A DNA stretch of 64,000 nt. It comes from Flectonema sp. DT1601. Lineage: Eukaryota; Euglenozoa; Diplonemea; Diplonemida; Diplonemidae. The position numbers and the translations under genes are program-made. The notes under the pieces were generated by a model. It was not told the DNA's origin and did not search any database. It saw only the letters and a program-made list of their open reading frames with translations. The stretch's first letter is position 1; each line of letters opens with the position of its first letter. The DNA is taken from contig OZ025793.1 of NCBI GenBank assembly GCA_964019425.1, forward strand, positions 620,001-684,000, written 5' to 3'. Positions 194 to 59,519 of this stretch are shown here, piece by piece.

Positions 194-1625
194 GCAGAAT
201 CGCTAAAAGACCTTCCTTGACGATTCGCATGGAGATCGCTTACGTAATTTCGTATACTCATCACCACTGCTGTTTAATTAGTAGCTGAGTGTTTTCTTTG
301 ATTTTTCCTGCTTGAATGCGGAGTGCGTCTCTATACGTGGCCAGTTGTTTTATATGTTTCTTTTTTTTTTTTTTTTTTTTTTTTTTCCCCCTTCTTTTCT
401 GTATCAAAAAACAGCAGTTAAACAATCGTAACAGGTTTGCTCAACATTCGAATTTTCTACATTCGAATTCTCAAAATATGTTTAATAGAATAGCATTGAA
501 TTTATCTTCTGAACACACCCGTGCGAAATTTATGTTCTTCATTCGGATCAGTACGTTACGGAATTGAGTTTCTGCATTATTTGCACAGGTAAGATTATTT
601 ATACTGCTTGTTGTAATTATCTGTTTTCGTTTTCTTTTCCTTGTTGTTTGTTGAGTCTTCAATAGAGACGTTAGGGGCCTGGATGTCAGCAACCCTTATT
701 ACCAAACGGGAAAAAAAAATAAAAAAAATAAAAAAGAAAAACGATCGAACGCACAATTTGTTGCGATGCCTCTGTTTATCCTTTTTTTTTAAACAAACTT
801 GTTGTAATTACCATACTCAGTGATTGGGTCCTACTAAGGTTACCCAGACCCCCCCCGCAGTCATCATTTCTGGATTTGCTAACTACAACATCAACATATT
901 ATATCTTCAGTTCTGTGGTTACAAGTCTTCGAAGAGAATACAAAAAAAAAAAAAAAAAAAACGCGTCTGAATGCCAACGCTTAGTCTAACTGCCTCTTTA
1001 GGTAGCCAAGTCCCTCGTTTTTTTTTTAATTTTAAGACACGCATGAATGGATCAAGAGGTTTAGCAATAAGCATTCCTTGCTTAGTAGTTGGTTTATATA
1101 GCTTGGCATCAGCATTACGTACGTGGTATCACCCCTTCACTTTCCCCCCCCATTCCCTCTTCAAACCGAACACCTTATTGTAAGTGTTAGAAGAAAAAAA
1201 AACAATCAATCAAGACAAACAAAAAAAAAAAAAAATAATAAAAAAGAAATCATTGGCGTATGCCTTCTTTCCCAGTCACAGATAGTATTCGCAAAGTGAT
1301 AGAAATATGGACCTGTGTTCATTCTGGCTCTTGTGAATTAACGAAAACCAATAAATAAGAGAAGTAAGACAGACTACGAATAGTCCTCTTCTCCACAAAA
1401 TCCGTTCCGATTTTCTAATACAAGTTCCCCTTTTCTTTTCTTGATTCTTGACTACGAGTAATAATATTTAGTTTACATTTAACATCCTTCTTAACAGCTA
1501 CAGTAACTGTTTAATGAAATAGAACTGCGCGGAACTAATCAAAAAGAAGGCAAACGTTCTGTTGTACAAAAAACAAACAAACTCATTCCTCCTACAGGAT
1601 ATTTCTCTAATCTCTGTATAATAAT
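1..1625. other. Intergenic, AT- and homopolymer-rich
   Basis: No supported gene. The stretch is dominated by poly(A) and poly(T) runs; short open frames here are mostly Phe/Lys homopolymer translations. The last 30 bases contain a pyrimidine-rich stretch ending in CAG at 1595-1597, 28 bases before the GrpE start, which could be a splice acceptor for a 5'-UTR intron or a spliced leader. Confidence 0.7.
156..191. repeat. Poly(A) run, 36 bases
   Basis: Uninterrupted A run, the longest homopolymer in the window. A 26-base T run follows at 361-386. Run lengths of this kind are error-prone in any assembly. Confidence 0.9.
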
Positions 1626-2288
1626 ATGACTGGGGTACTCCGTATCATGAGAAGCAGCCTTGCGCGTCAATCCTTCGGAGGATTTCAAACCGCGCGTGTG
1701 AATATGCAGCCTATGCGATTTCAGCAGGTGAGATGGAACACTGAAAAAGCCGAGAAGGAGTCCGAACAAGATACCAACAAGAATGCGGCAGAGGCAGAAA
1801 CTGAGGAAGTTGATGCCGAGAAGGACCCTAACTTGGTAAAGATTGAACAATTGCAGAAGGACTTGGCGTACGCCCTGGCTGAGGGTGACAACGCGAGAAA
1901 AATTGCAAAGAAGGACATTGAAGCCGCACGTAAATTTGCGCTTCAGAAGTTTGCGAAGGACCTTCTTGAGGTATCTGACAACATGGACCGTGCGATTTCT
2001 TCTGTCAATGAAGAACAGCGTTCCGAAAGCAAAGAAGTTCAAACTCTTTTCAAGGGAATTGAACTGACTAAGCACTCATTGGCAAAGGCACTTCAGTCCC
2101 ATGGTGTTGAAGCTCAGGAAGTACAGGTTGGTGACGCTTTCGATCCAAATATCCACGAGGCACTATTTAACATTCCCCTCGCTGAGGGAAAAGAACCAAA
2201 CACCATTGGAAACATTATTAAAGTTGGTTACAACTACCGTGAGCGTGTTCTCCGTGCCTCCCAAGTAGGAGTGTTCAACGATGCGTAA
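1626..2288 (+). CDS. Mitochondrial GrpE, nucleotide exchange factor of mtHsp70
   Basis: A 220-residue single-exon gene. GrpE proteins dimerise and release ADP from DnaK/Hsp70; the mitochondrial form (Mge1 type) works with mtHsp70 in matrix protein import and folding. The first ~40 residues are rich in Arg, Ser and Ala and nearly free of acidic residues, as expected for a matrix-targeting presequence. Residues ~45-110 are charged and helical (the long coiled-coil stalk). The C-terminal beta domain is clear: FDPNIHEALF followed by GYNYRERVLRASQVGVFN, the GrpE signature. Length fits the family. A second Met at residue 9 could also serve as start. A CAG acceptor-like site ends at 1597. No oddities in the frame. 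Confidence 0.93.
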   Translation: MTGVLRIMRSSLARQSFGGFQTARVNMQPMRFQQVRWNTEKAEKESEQDTNKNAAEAETEEVDAEKDPNLVKIEQLQKDLAYALAEGDNARKIAKKDIEAARKFALQKFAKDLLEVSDNMDRAISSVNEEQRSESKEVQTLFKGIELTKHSLAKALQSHGVEAQEVQVGDAFDPNIHEALFNIPLAEGKEPNTIGNIIKVGYNYRERVLRASQVGVFNDA

Positions 2289-3162
2289 GCAGACTTTAAG
2301 AAGGTTAGTTTGTTTTACTTTCCAATATAATATACTTTTATTTTGTTTCCCCGTTCTATCCTTTGCTGCCGTCCCTTCTGTTGAAGATTTGCAAATTATC
2401 AGCTTTTTTATTTATTTTTATTTTTTTTTTTGTTTCCCCTGTTTAAGGAATAAAAAAAAACAACTTGCTGGGTTACCTGTTTTTTTTTCTTCTTCTGCTC
2501 TTTTTTGTTTTTCTTTTCTTGAAAAAAGCGAACACACGGTCGCTCTATTTTTCGCTTTTGGAATTTTAGTTAATAGTACAGAACAGTGAGCGCGAAAGGA
2601 AAAAAAAACGAAAAAACAAAAAAGAAATGTCTGAGAAAAAAAAGTGAAAAAAAAAAAAAGAGGAACGCAGGTGGCTTGTGTTTTTTTAATTTTTTTTTTT
2701 TTTTTTTTTTTTAAAACTTTTCCCCCGTTTTCTTGGTTTTTTTTAATTTTTTTAAAAATAGTTTATATTCCCATTTCCTCGCATCATGCTCTATCAACCA
2801 GTGTTAGAAAATGCGGCGTTTCCCTGCGCTTCTTGCTTTCTTTAGTGCCCCACTCAAGGACTCTTGGCTGAGGTCAAGCATCAATTTAGTCCTATTTAAG
2901 TCGTGCATCATTACGTGTAGTCTCCTTCGAATTGTATTTCAATCTGGTGATGTAGTGATGATACGTTTCCGATTAGTTTGACGATTTAATGATTTCTGCT
3001 ACTCACTTTTAAGAAGTAACTTGTTATTATCATGGGCAGAATGCTACACATTAAAATGAGCTTTTTATCGTAAGAACTTTAACTTCTAATGGCTAGTAAA
3101 TAGTAAATATCAAAAGTGTAGTAACCAATACTTTAATACAGAACTACTACAGGTCAACAAGA
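2289..3162. other. Intergenic, T- and A-run rich
   Basis: Contains long T runs (for example around 2692-2712) and A runs. No gene seen. A CAG at 3150-3152 lies 10 bases before the next start codon. Confidence 0.65.
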
Positions 3163-5428
3163 ATGGAGGAGTTGGAAGAACTACTTCACGACATCCGAAG
3201 TGAACTAACCGCCAATGGGAGTGACGCGTTACAAGACAGAGTGACTGCACTCAGAAATATTTTAATAGATGAAGGAGTTTTTGTGGGAAGATCAATGTCG
3301 GCTTCTCCATCATCTCCGAAGAGTTTTCAAATCAGAAGAAGGAACACAATGCCATTCCACATTCACAGAAACGCTCCATTCGTCGAAGAAGTAACCCTTA
3401 GTGCTAGGAATTGGGTTCACTTTCACCATTTATGTAAATATGGACATTGGCATGGTCTTGTTCATAAAGCTAATGAGTGTCACCAATGTGTATCAGGCTG
3501 TGGTGGTGGAGCTTGGTCTCGGGTAAAACAGAGAGGAGAAAATGGAGAAATGGTTGAATCAGAAAAGAAGAGATTATCATCTCTCCTTAACCAAGCAATG
3601 TTTCTGGTAATTGCGAGGAATGCGAAGACTAAAATTGAGATAAATGAAGCAGGATTTCAAGGTACTGCTAAAAAGATAACCTACTCATTTGAAACGGATC
3701 AGTGGTACAAAGCAAACGTAGACATTACGATAGAAAAAACCGCCTTTGCCCATGGAGCAATGCGTGAATGCTGGATGATGAAAGAAGCTTCAGGAGAATC
3801 ATCTGGAGTATCAGCATGTGTTGCAAAAAAGTACATCGACCCAACATCAGCATCCATAGTAACCCCGTGGATTGAAGTACAAATGCAAGCAGTGTCGAAG
3901 TATTATGCTATGAAGTTCTCTCTTCACCCAAAGTGTTGGGACACAATTGATTTTATAGAGGCCTATTTAATTAATAACGCTCCAGACACTGATCCTATGA
4001 ATATTTATGCGGTCGAAAGATACTTGACCGGGACGTATCTCAAATATAATAATAACAGCGGGTATTGTAATTCAAAGAAGACGACTCCTCAAGCATTCTC
4101 TCACTACACGTGGTGTCAATCAAAAGGAAAATTAATGATAGTAGACATACAAGGCGTTGGTGATCTTTACACCGATCCTCAGGTTCATACATCTGACGGA
4201 ATAGCTTTTGGAGAAGGCAATCTCGGAGCAACAGGAATGGCGCTATTCTTTAAAACACACACTTGTAATCATATTTGCAAGTCTCTCGGACTTATGGAAG
4301 TTGAAATCTACAAAGGCGGTTGGTGTGAATCCCACTTGACACAAAACAACTTCGAACACGGCACCAGAACCCTGAGAGAATTGGCTGCTAAACTGAATGA
4401 AGTACAACTCCAGGTTTGTTTACATTACTCTTTTAATGTTAAGCTTTAACAATTGATTATAACAAACTACTCACACAGGGACGCTCACATTTATCTTATT
4501 CTGATCTACAGAGGGATGTAATAATTCCAAGTTCTATGATATTAAATAATCCTCAAAAAGACAATTGGATGGATACTTCTGACGTTCCTGAAGATGGACC
4601 TGCTCGTGCTCCTGACAGCAGTTTTTGGGAAGTTCAAACCCCTCCAGAAGGTGTTCATGGAGCCAAATTCGGGGAAGGAACCGACATTGGAGCCATTCAC
4701 ATGAAAATCTCAGAACTTCATTTGAATGGTAGATTCACTAACGGTCTCCCTCAGTTAGAAGAAGCTTTTTATCACAATCAATTGGCAGCCCGTTACAGGT
4801 ATGTAGTCTGTTTGTATTGTTGCATAACTAAAATAAAAAAAATATACGGTTTTTTACTTCTCTTAAACTAATCTTTCTGATTTTATATTTTAAAAAATAG
4901 TAATTACTAAAATACTTCAGGGATTTGAGTGGGCTCCTGTCCCTTGCAAGACTGTTTTCTGGACTTGACCACGACTGGTTAAGAGATCTGGTTGACGTAC
5001 CAGAAAAGAGAGACCTTTGTGTTATTTTACTCGAGATCGCGTTTGATGAAAAGAACTCGGCTGACGCTGCTCACGCCTTAGCATCTCTGCTTTGTGAAGG
5101 GCACTACGTTGGGAAGGATCCCGAGCTAGCTGTGAAATATCTTAAAGCTGTAGCACCAGATAATATTAGTAATTTAAAAACATTACTTCCAGAAGATACT
5201 TATGGTTGGGCGTCTTACACGCTACCAGAGGTAAAACGACTTGTTCTTCTTGGGGAAATGTCCAGCCGACTAAAACAACCAGACTACCAAACAGCATATG
5301 ATTCCTACTCTGAGGCTGCAGAGTTACACATGTGTAGTGGTAACGGTTCTGCGTCAGCTAAGATGTACGTACTGGCGGAAGCTATGTCGGAATACCTTGA
5401 TAATGAGGAAGAAGAAGAAGAAAACTAA
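3163..5428 (+). CDS. eEF2-kinase-like alpha-kinase, three exons
   Basis: Exons 3163-4413, 4479-4798 and 4921-5428 join in frame to 692 codons; introns are 65 and 122 bases (GTTTGT...ACACAG, GTATGT...TTCAG). The alpha-kinase (MHCK/EF2K) domain spans about residues 165-400. It carries the ATP-binding lysine in CVAKKY (K222), YLKYNNNSGY, TPQAFSHYTW, the catalytic block DIQGVGDLYTDPQVHT (from D328) and the glycine-rich GEGNLGATGMALFF. The C-terminal ~200 residues resemble the Sel1-like helical repeats of eEF2K (GAIHMKISELHLNGRF; AHALASLLCEGHYVGKDPELAVKYL). In the family this kinase phosphorylates elongation factor 2 and slows translation under Ca/calmodulin control. An ARNWVHFHH stretch near residue 86 may be the calmodulin-binding part, but a Cys/His-containing insert (CHQCVSGCGGG) follows it. 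It ends in an acidic tail. The AATAAA at 5494-5499 is a likely poly(A) signal. Confidence 0.9.
4414..4478 (+). other. Intron 1 of the eEF2-kinase-like gene
   Basis: 65 bases, phase 0, GTTTGT donor and ACACAG acceptor. Removing it restores an open frame that continues the eEF2K family sequence. Confidence 0.85.
4799..4920 (+). other. Intron 2 of the eEF2-kinase-like gene
   Basis: 122 bases, phase 2, GTATGT donor and TTCAG acceptor. A TACTAAA-like branch-point candidate lies shortly before the acceptor. Confidence 0.85.
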
Positions 5429-6292
5429 TTTCAGCTGGTTGACTCCAGTCTCCTTACATACTTCGTGTTTATTATCCTCGTCTCTAACTTTTAAATAAAG
5501 AATAAAAAGAAATACTCAGTTCAGTGCCGTTCGAATCCACTACATCAGATATTTAATATCGTCCCTTAAAATGCATAGGTTTGATCTATCAATGTGTGCA
5601 AGTGATGTGCTTTCTTCTCAAGCACAATCCCGGTTATAATTAAGTTGCAATAACCGACTATTTCTATCTATTCTTTTGTTTCACGTAATGCAGTTGTTGC
5701 TGATAACTTGGAGTGAGCCTTTCGCGCATGCAGGTGGTCACCACCTGGAATGACGATAGGTGATGCTTCCTTCAAGGGGTGGAACAGCTCTGGTTTTTCT
5801 TTTTTTTATTTAAAATAAAACACCTGCACACTCCTGTCCGAAAAGCTATATTAGCAGTGACCAGGCAGTGACCTACCTAATTTCATGCACTTTCGCTGAG
5901 GCGGCTACCTGCTTCCTTGACCAGATGGAGAGAGTAACAATAATAGAACGTAACTTTTCCTACTATTTGATAGTCGAAAATGTTGTACATTGTGATACAT
6001 GTTTTCGCTGTAGGAAAGAATCCGTGTTGCTCTTTCCCAAGATTGCGAGGCAGCAACTTACTACTATATTCAACGAATTTGTTTGGTGATTTTTACGTCC
6101 AGTGCCTCCATACGCGACGACCTACAGGATCTTCTTATCAAATTATTTCATTTTATTCTTTCAGGTCTTATCTGTTATATTATCGTGGTGGAAGCAGAAA
6201 AATAAATATACTCTGGAGTGTGTTATTATAATATTTAATTTCATCCATAAAAAGGCCTCCAACATCAATGAGTAATGTTGTGGGAGATATAA
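5429..6292. other. Intergenic with a short perfect palindrome
   Basis: No supported gene. Holds the eEF2K poly(A) signal at 5494-5499, the palindrome at 5731-5747, and a pyrimidine tract ending in TTTCAG at 6159-6164 that may be an acceptor for the next gene's 5' UTR. Confidence 0.65.
5731..5747. repeat. Perfect 8-1-8 palindrome
   Basis: CAGGTGGT-C-ACCACCTG. Perfect inverted repeat with one central base; suggests either a homodimer binding site or a small RNA hairpin. Function unknown. Confidence 0.8.
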
Positions 6293-9200
6293 ATGTGGAA
6301 GTGCTCCCGGGATGGCTTTCCCCTATGGGCCCTGCTTGGGTTCTTAGTCCTGTTTTTGGCGGGTTCACAAGCAGGTGTATGGCTACTAGGTAAAATAATT
6401 TCTGAAGAAGGCGTCCAAAGCCTGCAGGAAACATCTTTACAGCAGATTGTCGTGTCAACCAAAGCTGCTGTCGAAGCGGAGTTAGTCGCACCATTTACAT
6501 ATTTAAAAATAGTAGAGGGACTAGTTTCTATTCCCTTTGAACCAGTTTCTATTCAGAATGGAACAAGTGATTTCTTCCCTAAACTAACATGGCATTTGCG
6601 TCACTTGTGCAATACGAGACGGAGTACTGCCGTGTCAGGATTTTATTTGGGAACAAGTGAAAGTTTGTTCAGTGGAGCAACCTGTTCTAGTAATCAAAAT
6701 GAACAGACGGTCATGTCTTACAGAGTAAATGCTACTGACGGAAGGAGGTATTTTACTGCTGATGACATCATCTCTCAAGAGAGTGTTACATATAGTCCAA
6801 TTAATGTAGCTGCTTTAATGTATGATCCAGTCTTGAGACCTTGGTACAATGTAGCTCTTGTATCTGGTCTAAATTCATTATCGTTTACTGATATTTATAC
6901 TTGTTTTACATCAGCTCAGGGTTGTGTTTCTGGTGTTGTTCCTTTAGTTGATCGCAACAGTAATCAGATTATTGGTGTCGTTGAATTTGACTATCTGTTG
7001 ACAGCTTTGAATGATGTGCTTGATTCAATTGGTCAAAAGGAAGGTGGTTCATTTATTCTTGGTCAAGACGGTAGAACAATGCTTGCTAGATCAAGCCTAG
7101 TCAACCCATCAGATGTCAATGGAATATTAAACTATTTATTATCTAAACTAAACCTCGGAACTAATTCTGAAACCTTCTCAGGGAGACACGAGTCCTTTTA
7201 CATTGAACTTGTCCCTATATCACCACACTATCGTAATAACTCTTTGAAAGTAGTAGTAGACGGCAATTCCGTTGATATAAATTGGAATTTAGTGATATTC
7301 ATTCATCACTCATACTTCTATGGTACAATTGATCATTGGAATCAAGTATCACTACTCGTATTCATGAGTAGCTTAGTCTTCGCTCTGTTAGTTGTGTCAG
7401 CATTGGTAACGGTTGGGTTGATATTACCAATCAGGCAGTTGATTGCTGGTATGGATGAGGTCTCGAAAATAAATTTGAAATCTCACGAAGTAGATAAAAT
7501 AACAAAGAACCCTGATGCTATGGTCACTGAGGTAGGAAGGCTGAACAGATGCTTTTCAACGATGGTTGGTTTACTTGAAGAATGGGAAACCTATCTCCCT
7601 GAAGCTGTCGCAGGTAGATTTCCTGGTTCCAACCCACTCGGGACACCAGGTAGAGATTTCCGCCATGACGACGTCTCTGTTTCTATACTTCGAAAGCTAC
7701 GTGATTGGGGTTCATTAAAACGACGATTCGGAACTGTTTTAGTTGTCGAACTCGTTGACTTATTCGCAACCTGCGATGACACTGCCGACTTCACAATCCA
7801 AACAATAGTATCTCTCGTTCTTGAGAAGGCTCGTATTGCTGGTGGTGTCGCTCTTTCAATGTCAGCTTCTCGGTTTATTGCTACTTGGAATACACAAATT
7901 CCACACGTCTTACACGCTGAAGCTGCTTGTAGATGCGCTATTGTATCCCACACTGAGATTCAAAATGGTAGTAATTGGGTATCGTTTAGCGTTGCTTCAT
8001 CTCAACTGTGGGTAGGAAACCTTGGTGATGAGAGTCATAGAGCACCTGTTGTTGATGGTGATGCTATGGTACAAGCTATAACACTTGTACCCTTGAGTAG
8101 AATGATTCAGGTTCCTATCTTAGCAACAGATAAAGTTCATGAACAAGTTCAAGGTTTCATTCCTTGCAAACCTGTCGAGTCGATTGGAATTCCTGGGAAG
8201 ACACTTCAAACAATTAACATCTTTCAAATCTGTTCTGATCCCCTACCAGCTGATCTAAAGGCTACATACGTAACAGCATTTCATTACTTTAAATCCATGC
8301 AACTTGATAAGGCTCGAGATAGTTGGATTAGATTCTTTAACGATGGAGGTGATGATCCACAAGCACTCCGACTTCTTCGGTTGACATGCTACCTGATGTC
8401 AAAGGAGAAATCTGGAAAGAGAGAATTCAAAGACAGGTACTACAGATTATGTCCAACGTGGGTTGATCTCGAAGGTAAGGCAGCTAAAAGTAGACTTCCT
8501 GAAGTAGTACGAAATGTGATATCAAAATTGAAAGACGCCGGAAGTTACGAATACAACGACATGGAAGGTAGCGGAACCCTCACAGACGGAAAACCAGATC
8601 ATCTAGCGCCAGCACAAACTGATGACTGTAGGAGTATGGGATCATCAAAGAGTGGTGGGATTAATACTCCGAGAACTTCTTTTATTGGAGGCGCATCGAT
8701 TACTAGTTTACTCGACACACTTTCTACTGCAGGAAGTAAACACTTCTCTGCTTCTTTTGTATCTGATGCCAGGGAATCAACAAAAGTTCCTCAAACATTC
8801 ACTGATGCAAACAGACGACGATTCCATCGCAGCAACAGACTCCTTGGTAGAGGTGCCTATGGAGAAGTTTGGTTATGTATGGTAGGTGATGGTATGCTTG
8901 TAGCTCTTAAGAGTATTAAATTACCTCATCCTGAGACAACAGAACTTCATGATCGTACGAAATCAGTTCCTGGAGTTCAAAACTTGAATGAAATCGTTAA
9001 CGAAGTTGATCTCCTCTCTCGGATGAGACACGACAATATTGTGTCATACGTCTCCAACAGTGTTTGTGATGGATTCCTTCTTATCGTTATGGAATACGTC
9101 AGTGGTGGTAATCTAGGGACTATATTACAGGCCTTCCGTCAGAAGAACGCCGGGTTGCCTGAAAATAGCGTTCGACGATACGCATCTGACGCCCTCTGCG

Positions 9201-9664
9201 GATTAGAATTCCTCCACCAGTCTTCAATAATACACAGAGATGTCAAACCTGAGAACATCCTACTTAGCGCTGATGGTATATGTAAACTCGCTGATTTTGG
9301 AGCTGCGACGATAATCGGATCTTTTAGTTTAGAAAGTGCATCTCATAAACCGACTGGAACACCAATCTACATGGCACCTGAAGCTTGTCGTCATCAAGCA
9401 TGTAAAGGATCTGATATTTGGTCAATGGGTGTTACATTGTGTCAGCTTCTCACTGGTGAACATCCTTGGAGATTTGCTGACCCTGTAGATCTAAATCAAG
9501 ACAGGATATTATATTTAATGTCTTTGGAGGAGAACCCGATGGTTCCTCAAATACCTCCGTCGTGTCCAGCATTATCATTAATAATGAGATGTCTTAATCG
9601 AAAAGCTGAAGAGCGTCCAACAGCAACAGAGCTACTTAGTGATCCGTACTTACTTCAGGTTTAG
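6293..9664 (+). CDS. Receptor-type Ser/Thr kinase: Cache, HAMP, cyclase-like and kinase domains
   Basis: Single exon, 1123 residues. A membrane helix near residues 12-30 is followed by an extracellular Cache-type sensor (~35-340; the block RPWYNVALVSGLNSLSFTDI is typical). A second helix (~352-378) leads into a HAMP-like linker (PIRQLIAGMDEVSKIN). Residues ~470-660 look like a class III nucleotidyl cyclase fold without its catalytic residues (FGTVLVVELVDLFATC; no metal Asp). The kinase domain (~842-1122) is complete: LGRGAYGEVW, VALKSIK (K873), HRDVKPEN (D983), DFGAA (D1001), a GTPIYMAPE activation segment and a DIWSMGVTL block. It is closest in style to STE/MEKK kinases. Likely role: plasma-membrane sensing of a small ligand that controls kinase activity. 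The ligand is unknown. The stop is TAG. Confidence 0.85.
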   Translation: MWKCSRDGFPLWALLGFLVLFLAGSQAGVWLLGKIISEEGVQSLQETSLQQIVVSTKAAVEAELVAPFTYLKIVEGLVSIPFEPVSIQNGTSDFFPKLTWHLRHLCNTRRSTAVSGFYLGTSESLFSGATCSSNQNEQTVMSYRVNATDGRRYFTADDIISQESVTYSPINVAALMYDPVLRPWYNVALVSGLNSLSFTDIYTCFTSAQGCVSGVVPLVDRNSNQIIGVVEFDYLLTALNDVLDSIGQKEGGSFILGQDGRTMLARSSLVNPSDVNGILNYLLSKLNLGTNSETFSGRHESFYIELVPISPHYRNNSLKVVVDGNSVDINWNLVIFIHHSYFYGTIDHWNQVSLLVFMSSLVFALLVVSALVTVGLILPIRQLIAGMDEVSKINLKSHEVDKITKNPDAMVTEVGRLNRCFSTMVGLLEEWETYLPEAVAGRFPGSNPLGTPGRDFRHDDVSVSILRKLRDWGSLKRRFGTVLVVELVDLFATCDDTADFTIQTIVSLVLEKARIAGGVALSMSASRFIATWNTQIPHVLHAEAACRCAIVSHTEIQNGSNWVSFSVASSQLWVGNLGDESHRAPVVDGDAMVQAITLVPLSRMIQVPILATDKVHEQVQGFIPCKPVESIGIPGKTLQTINIFQICSDPLPADLKATYVTAFHYFKSMQLDKARDSWIRFFNDGGDDPQALRLLRLTCYLMSKEKSGKREFKDRYYRLCPTWVDLEGKAAKSRLPEVVRNVISKLKDAGSYEYNDMEGSGTLTDGKPDHLAPAQTDDCRSMGSSKSGGINTPRTSFIGGASITSLLDTLSTAGSKHFSASFVSDARESTKVPQTFTDANRRRFHRSNRLLGRGAYGEVWLCMVGDGMLVALKSIKLPHPETTELHDRTKSVPGVQNLNEIVNEVDLLSRMRHDNIVSYVSNSVCDGFLLIVMEYVSGGNLGTILQAFRQKNAGLPENSVRRYASDALCGLEFLHQSSIIHRDVKPENILLSADGICKLADFGAATIIGSFSLESASHKPTGTPIYMAPEACRHQACKGSDIWSMGVTLCQLLTGEHPWRFADPVDLNQDRILYLMSLEENPMVPQIPPSCPALSLIMRCLNRKAEERPTATELLSDPYLLQV

Positions 9665-15633: not shown

Positions 15634-16129
15634 TAACATTAGCTAACACTCTGTCTTCTTATTCTTATTCTAATTCTTAGATGGCTAATCATTAGCTGCT
15701 ACGTTGCAACTTATTTTTATATCTTTATCAGGGTATCGTTAAAAGTATGCGAGAAAGGAGGAGAAATGATTTTAACTTTTTTCAAAACTAGTTTTTCGAT
15801 TGGGGAAGAAAAAAAAAAAAAAAAACGGAACTCTAAATGGAGACTCTGGAAGCGAAACATACATATCAGAGATAACCTAAGCCGGAGTTGAGAAGGTCGT
15901 CAACGGAAGGAATGAAAGTAATGGAAAGTTTGTACCAGTACGGCAGCAGATCTGGTTTCTGGAGACTACGTTCATTTATTTAAAACTACTAAAACACTTT
16001 TGACAGTATTTGCTGTCACTGTATTCGATACTTACATTACGATATGTTGATTGGAATATTATTGGTGAATTCCCTTGTTGCTTTCCCTTATTATTTTCAC
16101 TAAACAGTTTGCTTCTTAAAACACGAAAC
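15634..16129 (+). promoter_or_regulatory. Upstream spacer of the array gene (unit 1)
   Basis: 496 bases between the fucosyltransferase stop and the first array start; the same sequence precedes every array gene. It contains an ATTCTT-type microsatellite near 15658-15678, an A run near 15808-15825 and a CACTAAACAG acceptor-like site ending at 16107, 22 bases before the ATG. No promoter motif is recognised with confidence. Confidence 0.45.
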
Positions 16130-38982: not shown

Positions 38983-41900
38983 ATGGGACATCACAAGATG
39001 GATCCCAAACTAGCCGCGCTGTTTGCGATGGTTGTGTCGATGTCGAGCAGTGGAGCTGTTTGGGGAATGACTCAGATTGTTGACGGCGCTGTTGTTGCCG
39101 CAGTACTAGCTGGAGTAGGTTTTCTTTGGGGAGGCATAACAATTCTATTTTCATATTGGATGGATAAGTCAGCAGTAGAGACAAGAGTAACAACTATCGA
39201 TATTGAACAAGGCCCAACTGTAGCTAGGGCAGACTACAAAGAAGGTTTCCTCAAGCAAGGACTCATTGACATGAATGAAGAACTAGCAGCCAGTACCAGT
39301 GATATAATTAAGGGTCAAAGAAGTACTACCGTATCAACAGAAGAGACATCAAGCTTGCTGCAACAGGTAAGTAAACAAAATTCAATCATTCCTCCAGATG
39401 GTGTTGTTACTGTTGTCTTTACCGACATAGAAGAATCTTCAACAATCTGGAGAAGAAGACCAGAGGCAATGAAAATTGCAATGCGCATCCACAATAAAAT
39501 AATGCGAGACTCCTACGCAGCATTTGATGGATATGAAGTGAAAACTATCGGAGATGCCTTTATGATTGCATTCACATCAGCTAGTTCTGCAGTGAATTGT
39601 TGTCTAAAAGCTCAATTAGACTTACTAAAGGCTGATTGGCCTGAAGGTATTCTCACGGACACTCTCTGCTCACCTGAAAACAACGAAAACGGGGTATTAA
39701 TTCATAGAGGGCTGAATATCAGAATGGGAATCCACACTGGACCAGCTACGAGAGAAATCGATCCAATAACAGAGAGATCTGACTACTTTGGACACACAGT
39801 TAACATGGCTGCTAGAATTGAAGCAGCATCTGCAGGAGGTGCTATTGCCTGCAGTAACGAAGTTCTTCGTGCCCTTGATGCATCGCATGTTGATTGCGAT
39901 ATCACTCCAGCTGGTAAGAAGAAACTCAAAGGAGTTGGTATGATAGAGCTTTCGATATTAAAGCCAAAGTCTCTGCCTAGAAAATGTGGACTTGGCGTAT
40001 CCACGAAAAAGTTAAATGCCACCCCCTCCCCCACACCAATGACACTTCAGGCCCTGTCCCCTGGGGAAGGTGGAAGTGCTAACGAAGCTGATAGAAGAAG
40101 AACTAAAAGATTTCTTCATAAGTTGTATGGAGAGAATCTGATGAGCGACAACAAGATACGTTCTATTGCTACCAGACTTCTCGACTCAGGGGAATTACAA
40201 ATGGTGACAGCGACTGTTGTTCATGTTCGTATTATAAACACGGAATCTGAACCCCTTCGACAGCAAATATCCTTCATGGAAATGTTAGCAGAGCGTACCT
40301 TTGGAATTGTAATGACCTCAGCATGTCCTAATGTCGTAATTGTATGGATGTGTGAACAACATGCTATGCAAGCAGCGTCATTTGCAGGTCTAATGGCAGG
40401 TGAACACGAATTATCTGAAAAGCGATGCACTCTAGGTATGGCTTCCGGAGGTGTTGCTTTTGGAGTTTCGACCACATCGACAGAGCAATACGTTACCTGT
40501 TTGGGAACACCTGTTGATTTTGCCTCTTCATTAGCTGAGGCAGCAGAAATATTTGAGGTGCAGTGTTTAACATTAGCTTCTATTGCTGTTGCTGCCCCAG
40601 CACTTCACAAGCTGATCAGACCTGTTGACTTTTGGCCTATTTATGGTGAATCTGAAACTCACTTAGAAATCTGTGAAATAAATGTTGCGGGACTTATGAA
40701 CGCAAGTAAATGGGAAGTATTCTATGGGGGAGGTGAAGAAACACGTTGGTTTGACATTGATTATATCCCAGCATTTCAAGCAGCTAAGGAAGGAGATATC
40801 ACTCTTATGCGAGAGATCTTAGCAAAGAATCCTGACGATCACATTGCAAAGCTCATCGTCGATGCTGAAGGCAAACAGATGTCTCGCAAAATGGTAAAGA
40901 TAGGAAAAGTTATGTCAGTAAAGGCAGTCGGACAAGAAGCTCTTGAAGAAGCCTGGGTAGCCGCATCCAAAGCTGCAGTACAAAAAGCCAGAAGCCACAA
41001 GGCGGAATTCATTTATATTAATGACCAGGCATATGAAGTTCACGCATTCATGAAGACTCATCCTGGAGGAAAGTCTGTTATTCAAAAGATGATTGGAAAG
41101 GATGCAACGGCAGAGTTCAACCTACACCACGACCACAACAGCAAGGCTCGCATTATAATGAAATCTTTACGAGTAAAGACTGAAGACAAAATGCACAGAG
41201 AACTAACCGTTGTCATGAACACAACAAGTATGTATTTGTTATTAAATTTTAAAAGACGTTGATGGAGAAATGCAAATAAAAAAATAAAACAAAAAAACAG
41301 AAGCACCAGACGTCGTCCTCGAAAGTTGGGAGAACTGCAAGGCCTTGGGTCTCGAAAGTTTTGGTATATTGCTGTACAGAAATTTATTTGAGACAAATCC
41401 TTCTCTTCTCGATCTCTTTCCATTTTCTGGAGTAAAATATTTATATGAAAGTAAACAACTCAAAGCTCACGCAATACAAGTAATGGCTGCGATTGATAAA
41501 AGCTTGAAAGGAATGGAAGAGGCTGCTGAAGTCGTACAAGTATTACACTCTTTAGGAGCATCTCATGCGAGGTGGGGAGTAAAAGAGAATATGTTTGACA
41601 CGTTTCACTTCGCGTTTGATAAAACTCTCAGAATGGCACTCCAAGAAAAATATACTGCTTCTGTAAGGGCAGCTTGGCTTGAAACAGCGCAACTTATAAC
41701 AGATGCGGCAAAGGTTGGTATTAGCCATCATGACATATCTAGTAATCTTCCTGTTGAGTTTAAATTTATTCGTCGTGAAACTCGTAATCACAATGTTTCT
41801 CTGATTGTAATTAGAAGTAATGAAGACTTGAGTACTATATTCGTTCCACCCGGATCTCACATCAGTCTGAAGGTTGGAAATGAACTCGCTAAACAATACA

Positions 41901-42448
41901 GCATTTCAAGAATTATTGGAAACGAATTACATCTCCTAGTAAAGCTATACCCAGAGAAGAAGAGTAGTATTGCATTGAAGAGTCTTGAGCACGGAGATTG
42001 TGTTGTTGTTAGAGGACCGTTTTTATCAGAATATCAAAACCACCATGATAATAAATCATTAGGATTTATTGGTGGTGGTACTGGTGTAGTTCCATTGATA
42101 TCGTTAGCAGCTGATGCGTTGATTGACCCAACAGTTCATGTGACGATTATGTCAGCAAACAGTACTCCTGCTGAGATATTCTTTAATGAGGAGATTGAAC
42201 ATTTAAAATCATTACCTGGAACTTGTACAATCATTCACTTCTTCACAAGGTCAGAAGTTATTGAAGAAACTCCGAAATTTGCTGATGAATGCATCGTCGG
42301 AAGTGATCGCCTCAGACCTGATATTATTGATAAGCATTTCCCTGAGTCACTAACACATTTCGTAGTTTGTGGTCCGGCTACTTTCAACAAATCTGTTTCT
42401 GAAACACTTCGATGTGCTCTTAAACAGTTCACTGTTCTTGGAGACTAA
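38983..42448 (+). CDS. Adenylate cyclase - cytochrome b5 - globin - FAD/NAD(P) reductase fusion protein
   Basis: Exons 38983-41227 and 41301-42448 join in frame to 1131 codons (1130 residues). Two membrane helices (~10-53) precede a class III cyclase (~135-330) with every key residue: metal Asp D148 (FTDIEESS) and D191 (KTIGDAF), purine-selecting K187 and D267 (DYFGHTVNMAARIE), and N274 and R278. Lys/Asp predicts ATP as substrate. A second cyclase-like fold (~400-600) lacks these residues. A cytochrome b5 domain (~675-730) keeps both heme ligands, H693 (HPGG) and H718. A globin (~750-880) has H805 (distal E7 position) and H837 (proximal F8). The C-terminus is a ferredoxin-reductase module: KQYSIS for FAD, GFIGGGTGVVPL and VVCGPATF for NAD(P)H. 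Likely membrane-bound sensor of oxygen, NO or redox state making cAMP; alternatively an NO dioxygenase with a cyclase attached. The start is chosen because the upstream frame opens only with TTG. Confidence 0.87.
41228..41300 (+). other. Intron joining the cyclase/b5 exon to the globin/reductase exon
   Basis: 73 bases, phase 1, GTATGT donor and AACAG acceptor. Removing it makes a Lys codon across the junction and continues directly into the globin A helix (APDVVLESWENC). Without splicing the first frame ends 35 bases later. Confidence 0.88.
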
Positions 42449-56251: not shown

Positions 56252-59200
56252 ATGGGGTGCGCAGATTCGAAACCGGCACGTCCTCCTCGTCAGCCAGTGA
56301 CAAAGAGGAAACCGCCGCCAACTGTGAAGCCTCCAACAAAGGCAGCACCTCCAAAAGCAGCACCGGTAAAGAGTGAGACTCCAAGAAAACAAATTGAAGT
56401 GTCGGATGAGAACAGCCCGCCACCGCAACCGGCAAAGGTAGTTCCTGAACCGTACAGAGAGACTCCAATAAAAGAAGTAGAAGTTGAACCTTTCGTAGAA
56501 GAAGAGGAAGAAGAAGAACACGATGATATGACAGGAAGCACATCTTCTGAAGACAGTGAAGGTATTCGTACGATGGGTACCGCTGATGATGACGAAGACT
56601 CATTCTCTGAAGAACTTGCCCCTCCTGCTAATGAAGATTTGATCCACGCAGTCGAACATGGAAAGGCTGACGCAGTTGAAGAACTTCTCTTAAAGGGTAT
56701 TTCCCCAAATGGTATGAATCACGGAATGACTCCTCTTCATAGAGCAGCATTTAGAGTTGAGAAAGCAACTTATCCAATTATACGACTCTTAGTTAAATAT
56801 GATGCTAACGTTAATGGAAAAGATTCATCAGGAGGAAGACCACTACACTCAGCTGCAAGACAAAAGAATCCAGACGCTGTGAAAGCATTGTTAACAGGTC
56901 CTACTATTGCTGATCCATTAGCAAAGAATCGAAATGGTGAAACACCAATTCACACTGCTGCTTCTACTGATAATATAGATACTTTAAGTCGTCTAATTGA
57001 TGCTTGTCATAATACAAAGGATGCAGTCACTTCAACAACATCTTCTGGAAATACTCCTCTACATCTCGCAGCACACCGCGGACGACTCAACTCCGTGTCT
57101 GTGTTAATTGAGCTTCATCGTCAACATCAAGTGACACTCGATCCATTAAATAACGGAGGCTATACTCCAATTCAGGAAGCAGCTCTCGAGGGTCACACGG
57201 CTATCGTTAAGACTTTGAAAGAAGCTGGGGCAACATACGACGTTGTAACCCGTGAAGCTTGCGCCAGAAACAATAGTTCATCGTACCAAATTATTCCAAA
57301 AACATCAAATAATATAAAGAATGGTAAGAAAAAGGCAAGTAAAGCCAACAGTGGTAGTGGCAAGCGATTCAGTGCCGCTGCCAAGAAAAACAGTGAAGTC
57401 GGAATAAAGAAGAAGACTTCTGGAATTACTAAAGCGAACAGCGGAAGTGGAAAACAAAGTGGAACTGGTTTGAAAAAGAAAGCGAAAAAGACAACGAGTG
57501 GCAGGACACCACCACCTCCCAAACTCCAGGAAGTTAGACAGCAATCGAACCAGAATAGTGTTCGGGCTGTTGCTGCATCTCCTGTTATTCCGACTACTCC
57601 TCAACTTTCTAAAACAAACTACAGCAGCCACTCACTAAAGCAGTGGCAGAAGGGACGTACCCTTGGAAAAGGAGCTTTTGGATCAGTCTGCGAGGCTCTT
57701 CTTCGGTATGAAATACATCACAACATTTGTAATAATATTTAATAAGTAAGTTCTAAGGACTAAAATAATAATAAAACAGAGATGGATCCCTTCTGGCTGT
57801 AAAACTCATTCAATTCGATGTCGAAGATAAAAAGGAAACCGAACTCGTAACTCAAGAGTTTGAATTAATTAAAAACTTAAATCATATAAACATCCTTCAG
57901 GTATGTATTTCCCTTATCCAATATCTATAAAGCCTTGCTTTCCTTCCTCCCAAATATGATGATCTACATAAGCAGTCTCCCTCTTCCGAATGGTTTTGAC
58001 GAATACCTGCTTTATCGAACCTAATTACTAAGCCCTGATTGTGTCTTTTATTCTCGTTTTCTCTCTGATTCTATCCGATGAAGATAAAAAAGCACCCTCT
58101 CCGGTCTCAAGGAAACCATGCGAGACACTTGTACAGCTTTTAAAACCCCGTTACCCGTCTGAGGATTTGTTTTGAATTCCCGTCTGTTGTTATCGTTCTC
58201 AACGACAACCTGTATTACGATATGATGATCTACATAAGCAGTCTCCCTCTTCCGAATGGTTTTGACGAATACCTGCTTTATCGAACCTAATTACTAAGCC
58301 CTGATTGTGTCTTTTATTCTCGTTTTCTCTCTGATTCTATCCGATGAAGATAAAAAAGCACCCTCTCCGGTCTCAAGGAAACCATGCGAGACACTTGTAC
58401 AGCTTTTAAAACCCCGTTACCCGTCTGAGGATTTGTTTTGAATTCCCGTCTGTTGTTATCGTTCTCAACGACAACCTGTATTACGATATGATGATCTACA
58501 TAAGCAGTCTCCCTCTTCCGAATGGTTTTGACGAATACCTGCTTTATCGAACCTAATAACTAAGCCCTGATTGACCTTTGAAATCTTTTGTTTTGCCCTT
58601 TTTCATTCACTCCTTTTAACCACTTCCTAGTGTCCTTGTTATCCGATGAAGATAAAAAAGCACCCTCTCCGGTCTCAAGGAAATCATGCGAGACACTTGT
58701 ACAGCTTTTAAAACCCCGTTACCCGTCTGAGGATGAGTTGCTTTCCTGCCTGGTGTTTTTTTCATTTAGTGAATTTAAACTAACTAAACAACAACACCAA
58801 CAGTATTATGGAATTAATATTGATCACAAAAATAGTCAGCTTCAGATATTCATGGAAATGGCTCCAAAGGGTTCTGTTGCATCTCTCGTGAAAAGTATCG
58901 GAGATGCGCTCTCGGTATGTTAGCTTGCTTATTAAACATTCACTCTTAATATTAAAGAAAAAATAAATATGAATTCACAACGCAGGTAAATGTAATTCGA
59001 AACTTCACAATTCAAATTCTTCAAGGCTGCCATTACCTCCACGAGAGAGGTATTATTCACAGAGATATTAAGGGTGATAATTTACTCATAGGTGAGGGTA
59101 ACGTAATAAAGCTCGCCGACTTCGGAAGTAGCAGACAGTTCGACAACTTAGTCACTGCAGGTAAATGCAATACTCTAATCGGGACACCACTGTGGATGGC

Positions 59201-59519
59201 ACCAGAAGTCATAAATCTGGATGGCTCTCAGGGATACAACACGAAAGCTGATATTTGGTCTGTCGGTATCACTCAAATAGAAATGTTAAATTGTGTTCCT
59301 TGGAAGAACGCTGATAAAGAAACCCCTTGGGGGATGTTATTTCAAATTGGTTCTTCAAACAGCGCTCCGAATGGAATTCCTTCTGACTGTCATCCAAAGC
59401 TTCACGCATTCATGATGAGGTGTTTTATTAGAAAACCAGATCTTCGACCTGATGCTGGTGAGCTTCTTTCTGATCCGTTTCTAACATGCCCTGAGAAAGA
59501 CTTAGAATGGTGTTGTTAG
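56252..59519 (+). CDS. Ankyrin-repeat MEKK-like protein kinase with N-terminal lipidation signal, four exons
   Basis: Exons 56252-57705, 57780-57900, 58804-58914 and 58986-59519 join in frame to 740 codons (739 residues). It begins MGCADSK: Gly2 is a myristoylation candidate and Cys3 a palmitoylation candidate. A Pro/Lys-rich then acidic disordered stretch follows (to ~125). Ankyrin repeats span ~128-330 (NGMTPLHRAAF-type units: PLHSAARQKN, TPIHTAASTDN, TPLHLAAHRGR, TPIQEAALEGH). A basic Lys/Ser/Gly linker precedes a complete kinase domain (~465-735): LGKGAFGSVCEA, AVKLI (K493), HRDIKGDN (D589), DFGSS (D607), GTPLWMAPE, and an ADIWSVGITQIEM block. HRDIKGDN and the overall sequence fit the STE11/MEKK class, MAP3Ks acting on MAP2Ks. 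Probably acts at a membrane. The stop is TAG. Confidence 0.87.
57706..57779 (+). other. Intron 1 of the ankyrin-kinase gene
   Basis: 74 bases, phase 2, GTATGA...AACAG; splits the kinase between the glycine loop and the ATP-binding lysine. Confidence 0.85.
57901..58803 (+). other. Intron 2 of the ankyrin-kinase gene, enlarged by tandem repeats
   Basis: 903 bases, phase 0, GTATGT...AACAG, against 61-233 for the other introns. The flanking exons join as LNHINILQ/YYGINIDHKN, the normal helix C to beta 4 connection of MEKKs, so the 266-bp repeats inside are not needed for the kinase. Confidence 0.85.
57955..58734 (+). repeat. 266-bp tandem repeat, two full copies and a diverged third
   Basis: Copies start at 57955, 58221 and 58487. 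The first two are essentially identical. The third matches to about 58573, has a different 66-base middle (58574-58639) in place of 30 bases, resumes to 58734 and has a few substitutions. Confidence 0.93.
58915..58985 (+). other. Intron 3 of the ankyrin-kinase gene
   Basis: 71 bases, phase 0, GTATGT...CGCAG. Confidence 0.85.

Follow-up and report, generated by a model that had tools for sequence, protein, structure and literature searches.

A Flectonema adenylate cyclase predicted to carry a pseudo-cyclase domain and its own cytochrome b5, globin and flavin reductase

Within the 64,000-nucleotide stretch of DNA analysed here (the window; contig C14:620001-684000 of an 89.5 Mb genome in 92 contigs, eukaryotic by its spliced genes), a cyclase gene of two exons (38983-42448, + strand) reads through a class III cyclase, a cytochrome b5, a globin and an FAD/NAD(P)H reductase. 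This raises the question of whether a single polypeptide holds all of these parts and, if so, whether the heme and flavin domains control the cyclase or serve an enzymatic purpose of their own.

Joining exon 1 (38983..41227, +; residues 1-748 and the first base of codon 749) to exon 2 (41301..42448, +; residues 749-1130 and the stop codon) gave a CDS of 3393 nt without an internal stop that encodes 1,130 residues, and thereby reproduced the two in-frame exons and the intron that the first-pass annotation had read at these same positions. Exon 1 is an open frame from the ATG at 38983, and the alignment with the homologue P0034, described below, runs from its first methionine. The predicted intron (41228..41300, +; 73 nt, phase 1) has the borders GTATGT...AACAG, which resemble those in a kinase gene elsewhere in the window. 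Specifically, the three kinase introns (gene at 56252-59519), which measure 74, 903 and 71 bases, begin with GTATGA or GTATGT and end with AACAG or CGCAG, and the joined kinase product matches the Pfam Pkinase profile over positions 2-263 of 263 (E 5.3e-56). Because removal of introns with such borders restores a complete kinase domain, we consider the cyclase intron credible. If the intron were retained, a stop at 41260-41262 would give a 759-aa cyclase-b5 protein, and mechanical gene callers do treat the two parts as separate, with P0001 at 759 aa and P0033 at 321 aa. Exon 2 starts just upstream of the globin; its first ATG is M810 in the middle of this domain, and it is at M810 that the mechanical database call P0033 begins. 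Because exon 2 lacks an ATG before mid-globin, the intron borders resemble those of the kinase gene, and P0034 is a single transcript ORF through the same boundary, the prediction that cyclase, b5, globin and reductase form one gene once the intron is removed is supported. The single gene initially proposed thus finds a counterpart in an independent, transcript-derived protein.

The 1,130-residue translation contains five Pfam domains, all above the Pfam cut-offs, and these are the five families that the first-pass annotation had expected from a domain search (Guanylate_cyc, Cyt-b5, Globin, FAD_binding_6 and NAD_binding_1). Likewise, the ten residues it had named, six in the cyclase together with H693, H718, H805 and H837, are all where it had placed them. 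At the N-terminus lies a predicted membrane part (39010..39147, +; about residues 10-55) with a weak helix at residues 10-28 and a clear one at 37-55, for which the 19-residue Kyte-Doolittle means are 1.53 and 2.22, respectively, while values elsewhere in the protein, inside soluble domains, reach 1.74. Of the two membrane helices originally described, the second is therefore clear, whereas the first falls under the soluble maximum; P0034, however, has two N-terminal hydrophobic stretches (means 2.12 and 1.95; elsewhere up to 1.57). The membrane part is poorly conserved between the two proteins (13/60 positions identical). The protein is probably membrane-anchored.

The catalytic domain, C1 (39403..39951, +; residues 141-323; PF00211, E 5.7e-31), contains D148 and D191 as the predicted metal-binding Asp, K187 and D267 as the substrate Lys/Asp pair, and N274 and R278 as the Asn/Arg pair. 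Among solved sequences it comes closest to GRESAG 4.3 and 4.1, two cyclases of trypanosomes (best E 2.8e-28), and by its Guanylate_cyc domain and catalytic residues the protein classifies as a predicted class III adenylate cyclase. Further downstream, the cytochrome b5 domain (40972..41175, +; residues 664-731; PF00173, E 1.3e-12) has its two heme histidines, H693 and H718, and its nearest solved sequence is a cytochrome b5. The globin core (41372..41704, +; residues 773-883; PF00042, E 8.2e-17) was aligned with human neuroglobin, from which we take H805 to be E7, H837 to be F8, F788 to be CD1 and Y774 to be B10; its closest solved sequences are neuroglobin and plant non-symbiotic hemoglobins. 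The reductase, for which the closest solved sequences are NADH-cytochrome b5 reductases, consists of an FAD-binding domain (41762..42022, +; residues 903-989; PF00970, FAD_binding_6, E 6.8e-8) and an NAD(P)H-binding domain (42065..42400, +; residues 1004-1115; PF00175, NAD_binding_1, E 1.5e-8). As for the FAD and NAD(P)H motifs reported in the first reading, the latter (GGGTG at 1006-1010 and CG at 1105-1106) are shared with P0034, whereas the FAD motif has Lys in place of Arg (K-Q-Y-S at 946-949 versus R-P-Y-S in P0034).

P0034 is a EukProt protein of 1,186 aa named as the complete ORF of a Trinity transcript. It was found with residues 650-1130 as the query in a search limited to lengths between 0.55 and 1.75 times that of the complete window protein, and matched across the whole of this region with 34% identity (E 8.9e-64). 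Its Pfam families and their order are identical to those of the window protein, with FAD_binding_6 just below the cut-off (20.4 versus 21.1 bits), and the two proteins align at 37% identity over the entire length of the window protein, starting with the first methionine. Identity over ungapped positions is highest in C1 (54%), followed by the globin (45%), b5 (41%), the region after C2 (40%) and C2 itself (37%), and is lower in the NAD domain (34%), the FAD domain (26%), the membrane part (25%) and the linkers (11 to 31%, with 11% between b5 and globin). Both proteins have all six of the C1 catalytic residues, the b5 histidines H693 and H718 (and also H716), and H805, H837 and F788 of the globin; they differ at B10, which is Tyr (Y774) in the window protein and Phe in P0034, and at FAD-motif residue 946. 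The presence of the same arrangement in a second eukaryote at 37% identity suggests long-standing conservation. Searches of 5.77 billion proteins gave no other example of this architecture among the approximately 8,000 candidates with the most shared words that were scored per search, and more members may exist beyond these scored candidates. An AlphaFold model of P0034, built from a 3-row alignment, has a mean pLDDT of 36 and carries no weight.

Between C1 and b5 the first-pass annotation had placed a degenerate cyclase-like domain, C2, which Pfam does not detect. As a test of this assignment we used a family alignment of 24 rows, of which 22 are other family members of the same genome and the remaining two are the window exon and P0034. 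Over 171 columns, a C2 profile built from these rows could be aligned with a C1 profile that had been broadened to 64 sequences, with a score of 29.7 (E 0.0007), which none of 60 column-shuffled versions reached (mean 12.3, maximum 21.2), so that the degenerate domain stands by this control, though at an HHalign probability of 26%; with a narrow C1 profile, the alignment to C2 was limited to 31 columns (probability 1.8%, E 0.027). In the profile alignment, D148, K187, D191, D267, N274 and R278 of C1 face R416, T445, P449, T505, D512 and S516. We take C2 (40168..40782, +; about residues 396-600; present in the family alignment) to be a C1 homologue and putative pseudo-cyclase with six of six catalytic positions replaced. 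The C1 residues, for their part, are nearly invariant in the family alignment: D148, K187, D191 and D267 are present in 24/24 rows, and N274 and R278 in 23/24, the row without them being L030, in which an ammonium transporter is fused to the cyclase. A mammalian-type pseudo-heterodimer of C1 and C2 is a poor match, as C2 has T445, T505, D512 and S516 at the substrate and transition-state positions.

The remaining cyclases of the genome bear on how the C-terminal domains are to be read. A search with the cyclase part listed 66 matches (60 of 217 candidates scored), among which are about 59 loci after merging of same-frame pieces and with the window locus included. For 19/24 rows of the family alignment, some of which are cut at locus ends, the cyclase is the sole domain that Pfam sees. 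Cyt-b5 is found in four rows (the window, P0034 and two others), Cytochrom_B561 in two, and Ammonium_transp, Desulfoferrodox and DOMON in one each; the window row consists of exon 1 alone, so globin and reductase are seen only in P0034. Added modules are thus present in 3 of the 22 other members examined, in each case upstream of the cyclase: DOMON-b561-b5 in P0035 (contig C57; DOMON at 26.4 bits versus a cut-off of 32.7), superoxide-reductase-b561-b5 in P0036 (contig C63; 1,947 residues read of a 2,416-aa frame), and the ammonium transporter of L030. P0036 has three superoxide-reductase matches in its frame, an assignment based on Pfam PF01880; the NCBIfam match lies under its cut-off (46.4 versus 61.9 bits), and 800 residues of the repeat part had no match among solved structures at E 0.01. 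The b5 domain precedes the cyclase in P0035 and P0036 and follows it in the window gene, and overall the genome has 49 b5 matches, three of which lie in the same frame as a cyclase match. The genome search gave at least four globin matches, one of them with a cyclase, and a direct Pfam scan of locus L023 showed further globin stretches absent from these matches. Exon 2 has no second copy in the genome, where five weak reductase matches lie in frames without a Pfam globin. Scans with two short patterns, which say little, gave a single weak globin-only match in a prokaryote collection (a gammaproteobacterial MAG; 24% identity over query residues 105-238 of 482) and no confirmed relative among viral contigs.

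How does this protein compare with known systems? HemAC-Lm of Leishmania major similarly joins a heme globin and a class III adenylate cyclase in one protist protein, and by this likeness a heme ligand would be expected to affect cAMP. The globin of HemAC-Lm is of the sensor type and lies N-terminal to the cyclase, whereas in the window protein it follows C1, C2 and b5. Thus, the predicted protein is a globin-coupled adenylate cyclase in the wide sense and, by its domain order, is not a HemAC. It also differs in its predicted membrane part, pseudo-cyclase, b5, reductase and C-terminal, neuroglobin-like globin; HemAC-Lm is described as soluble (PMC4534343). Of the two hydrophobic stretches at the N-terminus here, one is clear and the other weak; P0034 has two. 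The trypanosome receptor-type cyclases GRESAG 4.1 and 4.3 provide the closest solved catalytic domain, with the same catalytic residues in the alignment. In the passages of PMC6027212 considered, such cyclases combine an extensive extracellular region with a single membrane helix and a single catalytic domain, and no heme module is mentioned there, whereas the window protein has one. With flavohemoglobins the protein shares the globin-FAD-NAD order and a weak collinear match to the family model, but it falls far under the family cut-off (53.3 versus 432 bits) and adds b5 and cyclase. Judged by that cut-off it is not a flavohemoglobin, nor, by the residues compared above, does it qualify as a mammalian-type C1-C2 cyclase. 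Ncb5or consists of a b5, a CS domain and a b5 reductase in that order. The window protein resembles it in that a b5-reductase-like FAD/NAD part lies downstream of a b5, but has the globin between the two and the cyclase ahead of both, and a Pfam scan reaching to E 1 showed no CS domain. Finally, chimeric globins of Guillardia theta also combine b5 and globin in a protist protein, with a putative N-terminal b5 and three globin domains each; the available text of PMC4101818 mentions neither a cyclase nor a reductase, and the window protein has both. In open-licence PubMed Central we recognised no description of a cyclase with b5, globin and reductase, in agreement with the first-pass annotation, which knew of no protein combining all these domains. 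Nor did this literature yield a globin-coupled cyclase equipped with a reductase and an electron carrier of its own.

Based on these comparisons, our working hypothesis, to which we assign a probability of roughly 55%, is that the protein is an adenylate cyclase controlled by a C-terminal, self-reducing b5-globin module that would act as a sensor of O2, NO or redox state. NAD(P)H would reduce the FAD, and the b5-reductase-like domain would pass electrons through b5 to the globin, which, with two candidate axial histidines as in neuroglobin, would bind O2 or NO and then be re-reduced. The ligand and redox state of the globin could in this way report O2, NO or the supply of NAD(P)H, and the state of the whole b5-globin-reductase module would control C1. 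A class III active site draws its residues from two domains. Since C2 contributes none, an intrachain C1-C2 pair is expected to be silent; we therefore picture an off state in which C1 is capped by C2, from which a change of state in the b5-globin module, adjoining C2, would free C1 to form active C1-C1 homodimers. Several precedents favor this sensor reading: trypanosome cyclases are activated through dimerisation of their catalytic domains (PMC6027212), the NO dioxygenase activity of cytoglobin can be supported by cytochrome b5 in vitro (PMC3820574), and oxygen binding by the Leishmania heme adenylate cyclase HemAC-Lm leads to cAMP (PMC4534343). It is favored further by the domain matches, by the end-to-end homologue with its six cyclase residues and four heme histidines, and by the catalytically empty C2. 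Because three sister cyclases bear other redox or transport modules, we read the b5-globin-reductase part as an input and not as an enzyme regulated by the cyclase. Against the sensor reading, the capping idea has no interface support from the AlphaFold model, the C1-C2 relationship has the modest HHalign probabilities given above, a single homologue was found, most family rows show the cyclase only, and conservation is lowest in the reductase, the membrane part and the linkers, with the FAD-motif Arg replaced by Lys.

Alternatively, the C-terminal part could act mainly as an enzyme, in the manner of a flavohemoglobin that, assisted by b5, would destroy NO or reduce nitrite, with the cyclase as its regulated partner or as a user of NO clearance near the membrane, in which case the signal would run from cyclase to globin or the two would only be co-localised. 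Flavohemoglobins have Tyr at B10, as the window protein does, and exon 2 is collinear with the NO-inducible flavohemoprotein model over residues 24-370 of 381 (E 2.1e-14), in keeping with the shared domain order; globin NO dioxygenation supported by b5 in vitro (PMC3820574) also fits. The score against that model nevertheless remains far below its cut-off, the nearest solved globins and reductases belong to other families (neuroglobin and plant non-symbiotic hemoglobins, and b5 reductases), P0034 has Phe at B10, and the three sister cyclases have their added part before the cyclase, resembling an input. We regard this enzymatic alternative as unlikely, and an NO dioxygenase under cyclase feedback as less likely than the heme sensor. 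Ranked after it, and likewise improbable in our view, is a sensor of NAD(P)H or redox balance in which b5 and globin would serve above all to store or pass on electrons, cAMP would track reduced b5 beside C2, and gas binding would be incidental. The position of b5 next to C2, the conservation of both b5 histidines in P0034 and the two other cyclases with b5 and b561 but no Pfam globin speak for such a sensor; the globin, however, is the best conserved of the C-terminal domains (45%) and keeps its E7 and F8 histidines, suggesting that ligand chemistry matters. Last, the notion that the cyclase-b5 part ends at 41262 and the globin-reductase belongs to another gene, or that the join is an assembly or gene-model artefact, has the two separate mechanical calls on its side but is very improbable and was rejected on the strength of P0034, a single transcript ORF of identical domain order, and of the kinase intron control, next to the missing ATG upstream of mid-globin.

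Returning to the globin-based sensor, its heme could be reset after each event, so that turnover of O2 or NO could be reported rather than simple binding. More broadly, the b561, superoxide-reductase and ammonium-transporter parts on other cyclases of the source organism suggest a coupling there of cAMP to electron transport and to nutrient uptake. We tentatively extend this to a possible, if doubtful, generalisation: the lineage may have evolved electron-flow-driven cyclases in which built-in chains set cAMP, running NAD(P)H-FAD-b5-globin within the cell in the window protein and through a transmembrane b561-b5 pair preceded by DOMON or superoxide-reductase domains in two sisters, with the empty C2 as a cap lifted by the redox domain. 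Such wiring of cAMP to electron transport and nutrient uptake would add a new theme to what is known of protist sensing, and redox-gated cyclase tools could be drawn from it.

Class III cyclases form a greatly expanded family in the Flectonema sp. DT1601 assembly, where 66 matches in the genome search correspond to about 59 loci, and a degenerate second cyclase domain like C2, the non-catalytic cyclase-like domain of the window gene, is common to many of them. One member of this family is joined to an ammonium transporter (PF00909, E 5.5e-43 in Pfam; L030, contig C20:457000-466000, frame 1236-4163, minus strand). In the family alignment of 24 rows, which comprises the window exon, its EukProt homologue P0034 and 22 further cyclases of the genome, this is the only row in which the catalytic Asn and Arg positions are occupied by Thr and Tyr.

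Within the window, a protein encoded at 6293-9661 has a protein kinase domain at residues 848-1120 (Pfam, E 7.1e-54) and a weak, below-cut-off match to dCache_1 at residues 165-267; by eye, the stretch between the two looks like C2. Directly upstream of the cyclase gene lie five open frames in tandem (16004-38035; starts at 16004, 20708, 25403, 29867 and 34436), which are much alike, encode 1,102-1,199 residues each and carry long PTPQPEG and PTSVPTAVPTSVP repeats that vary in number among the copies. For the last of these frames, Pfam returned no domain match.

Elsewhere in the assembly, an exact pattern scan placed the end motif of the small-subunit rRNA at 30 sites, some of which form tandem arrays (about 6.9 kb, contig C92) and others of which are single. 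Judged by eye, L042 (C6:307652-310669) looks like a small-subunit 3' piece fused to an apparent large-subunit piece within low-complexity DNA, so dispersed rDNA fragments seem to be present in the genome.

At L023 (C17:886000-895000, minus strand), two adjacent, overlapping frames (4091-6304 and 2647-4125) each contain two globin stretches and a b5 domain terminates the second (Pfam), which resembles the chimeric Guillardia theta proteins that join a putative b5 to three globin domains (PMC4101818). At L024 (C5:71500-80000, frame 1158-4763, minus strand), a single frame of 1,202 residues combines a class 3 lipase with a globin (Pfam).

Two further cyclases carry redox domains. P0035 (L021, C57:166500-174500, frame 2460-6251, minus strand) is a single open frame of 1,264 residues in the Pfam order DOMON (below cut-off), cytochrome b561, cytochrome b5 and adenylate cyclase, such that a predicted membrane electron-transfer module immediately precedes the cyclase. 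In the 2,416-residue frame of P0036 (L022, C63:68000-77500, frame 3659-9499, minus strand), superoxide-reductase (desulfoferrodoxin) domains, with three Pfam matches over cut-off, cytochrome b561 and b5 all lie ahead of the cyclase catalytic domain. By eye, three repeats keep the His/His/His/Cys/His pattern of the superoxide-reductase iron site, and its retention makes it possible that P0036 would convert extracellular superoxide into a cAMP signal.
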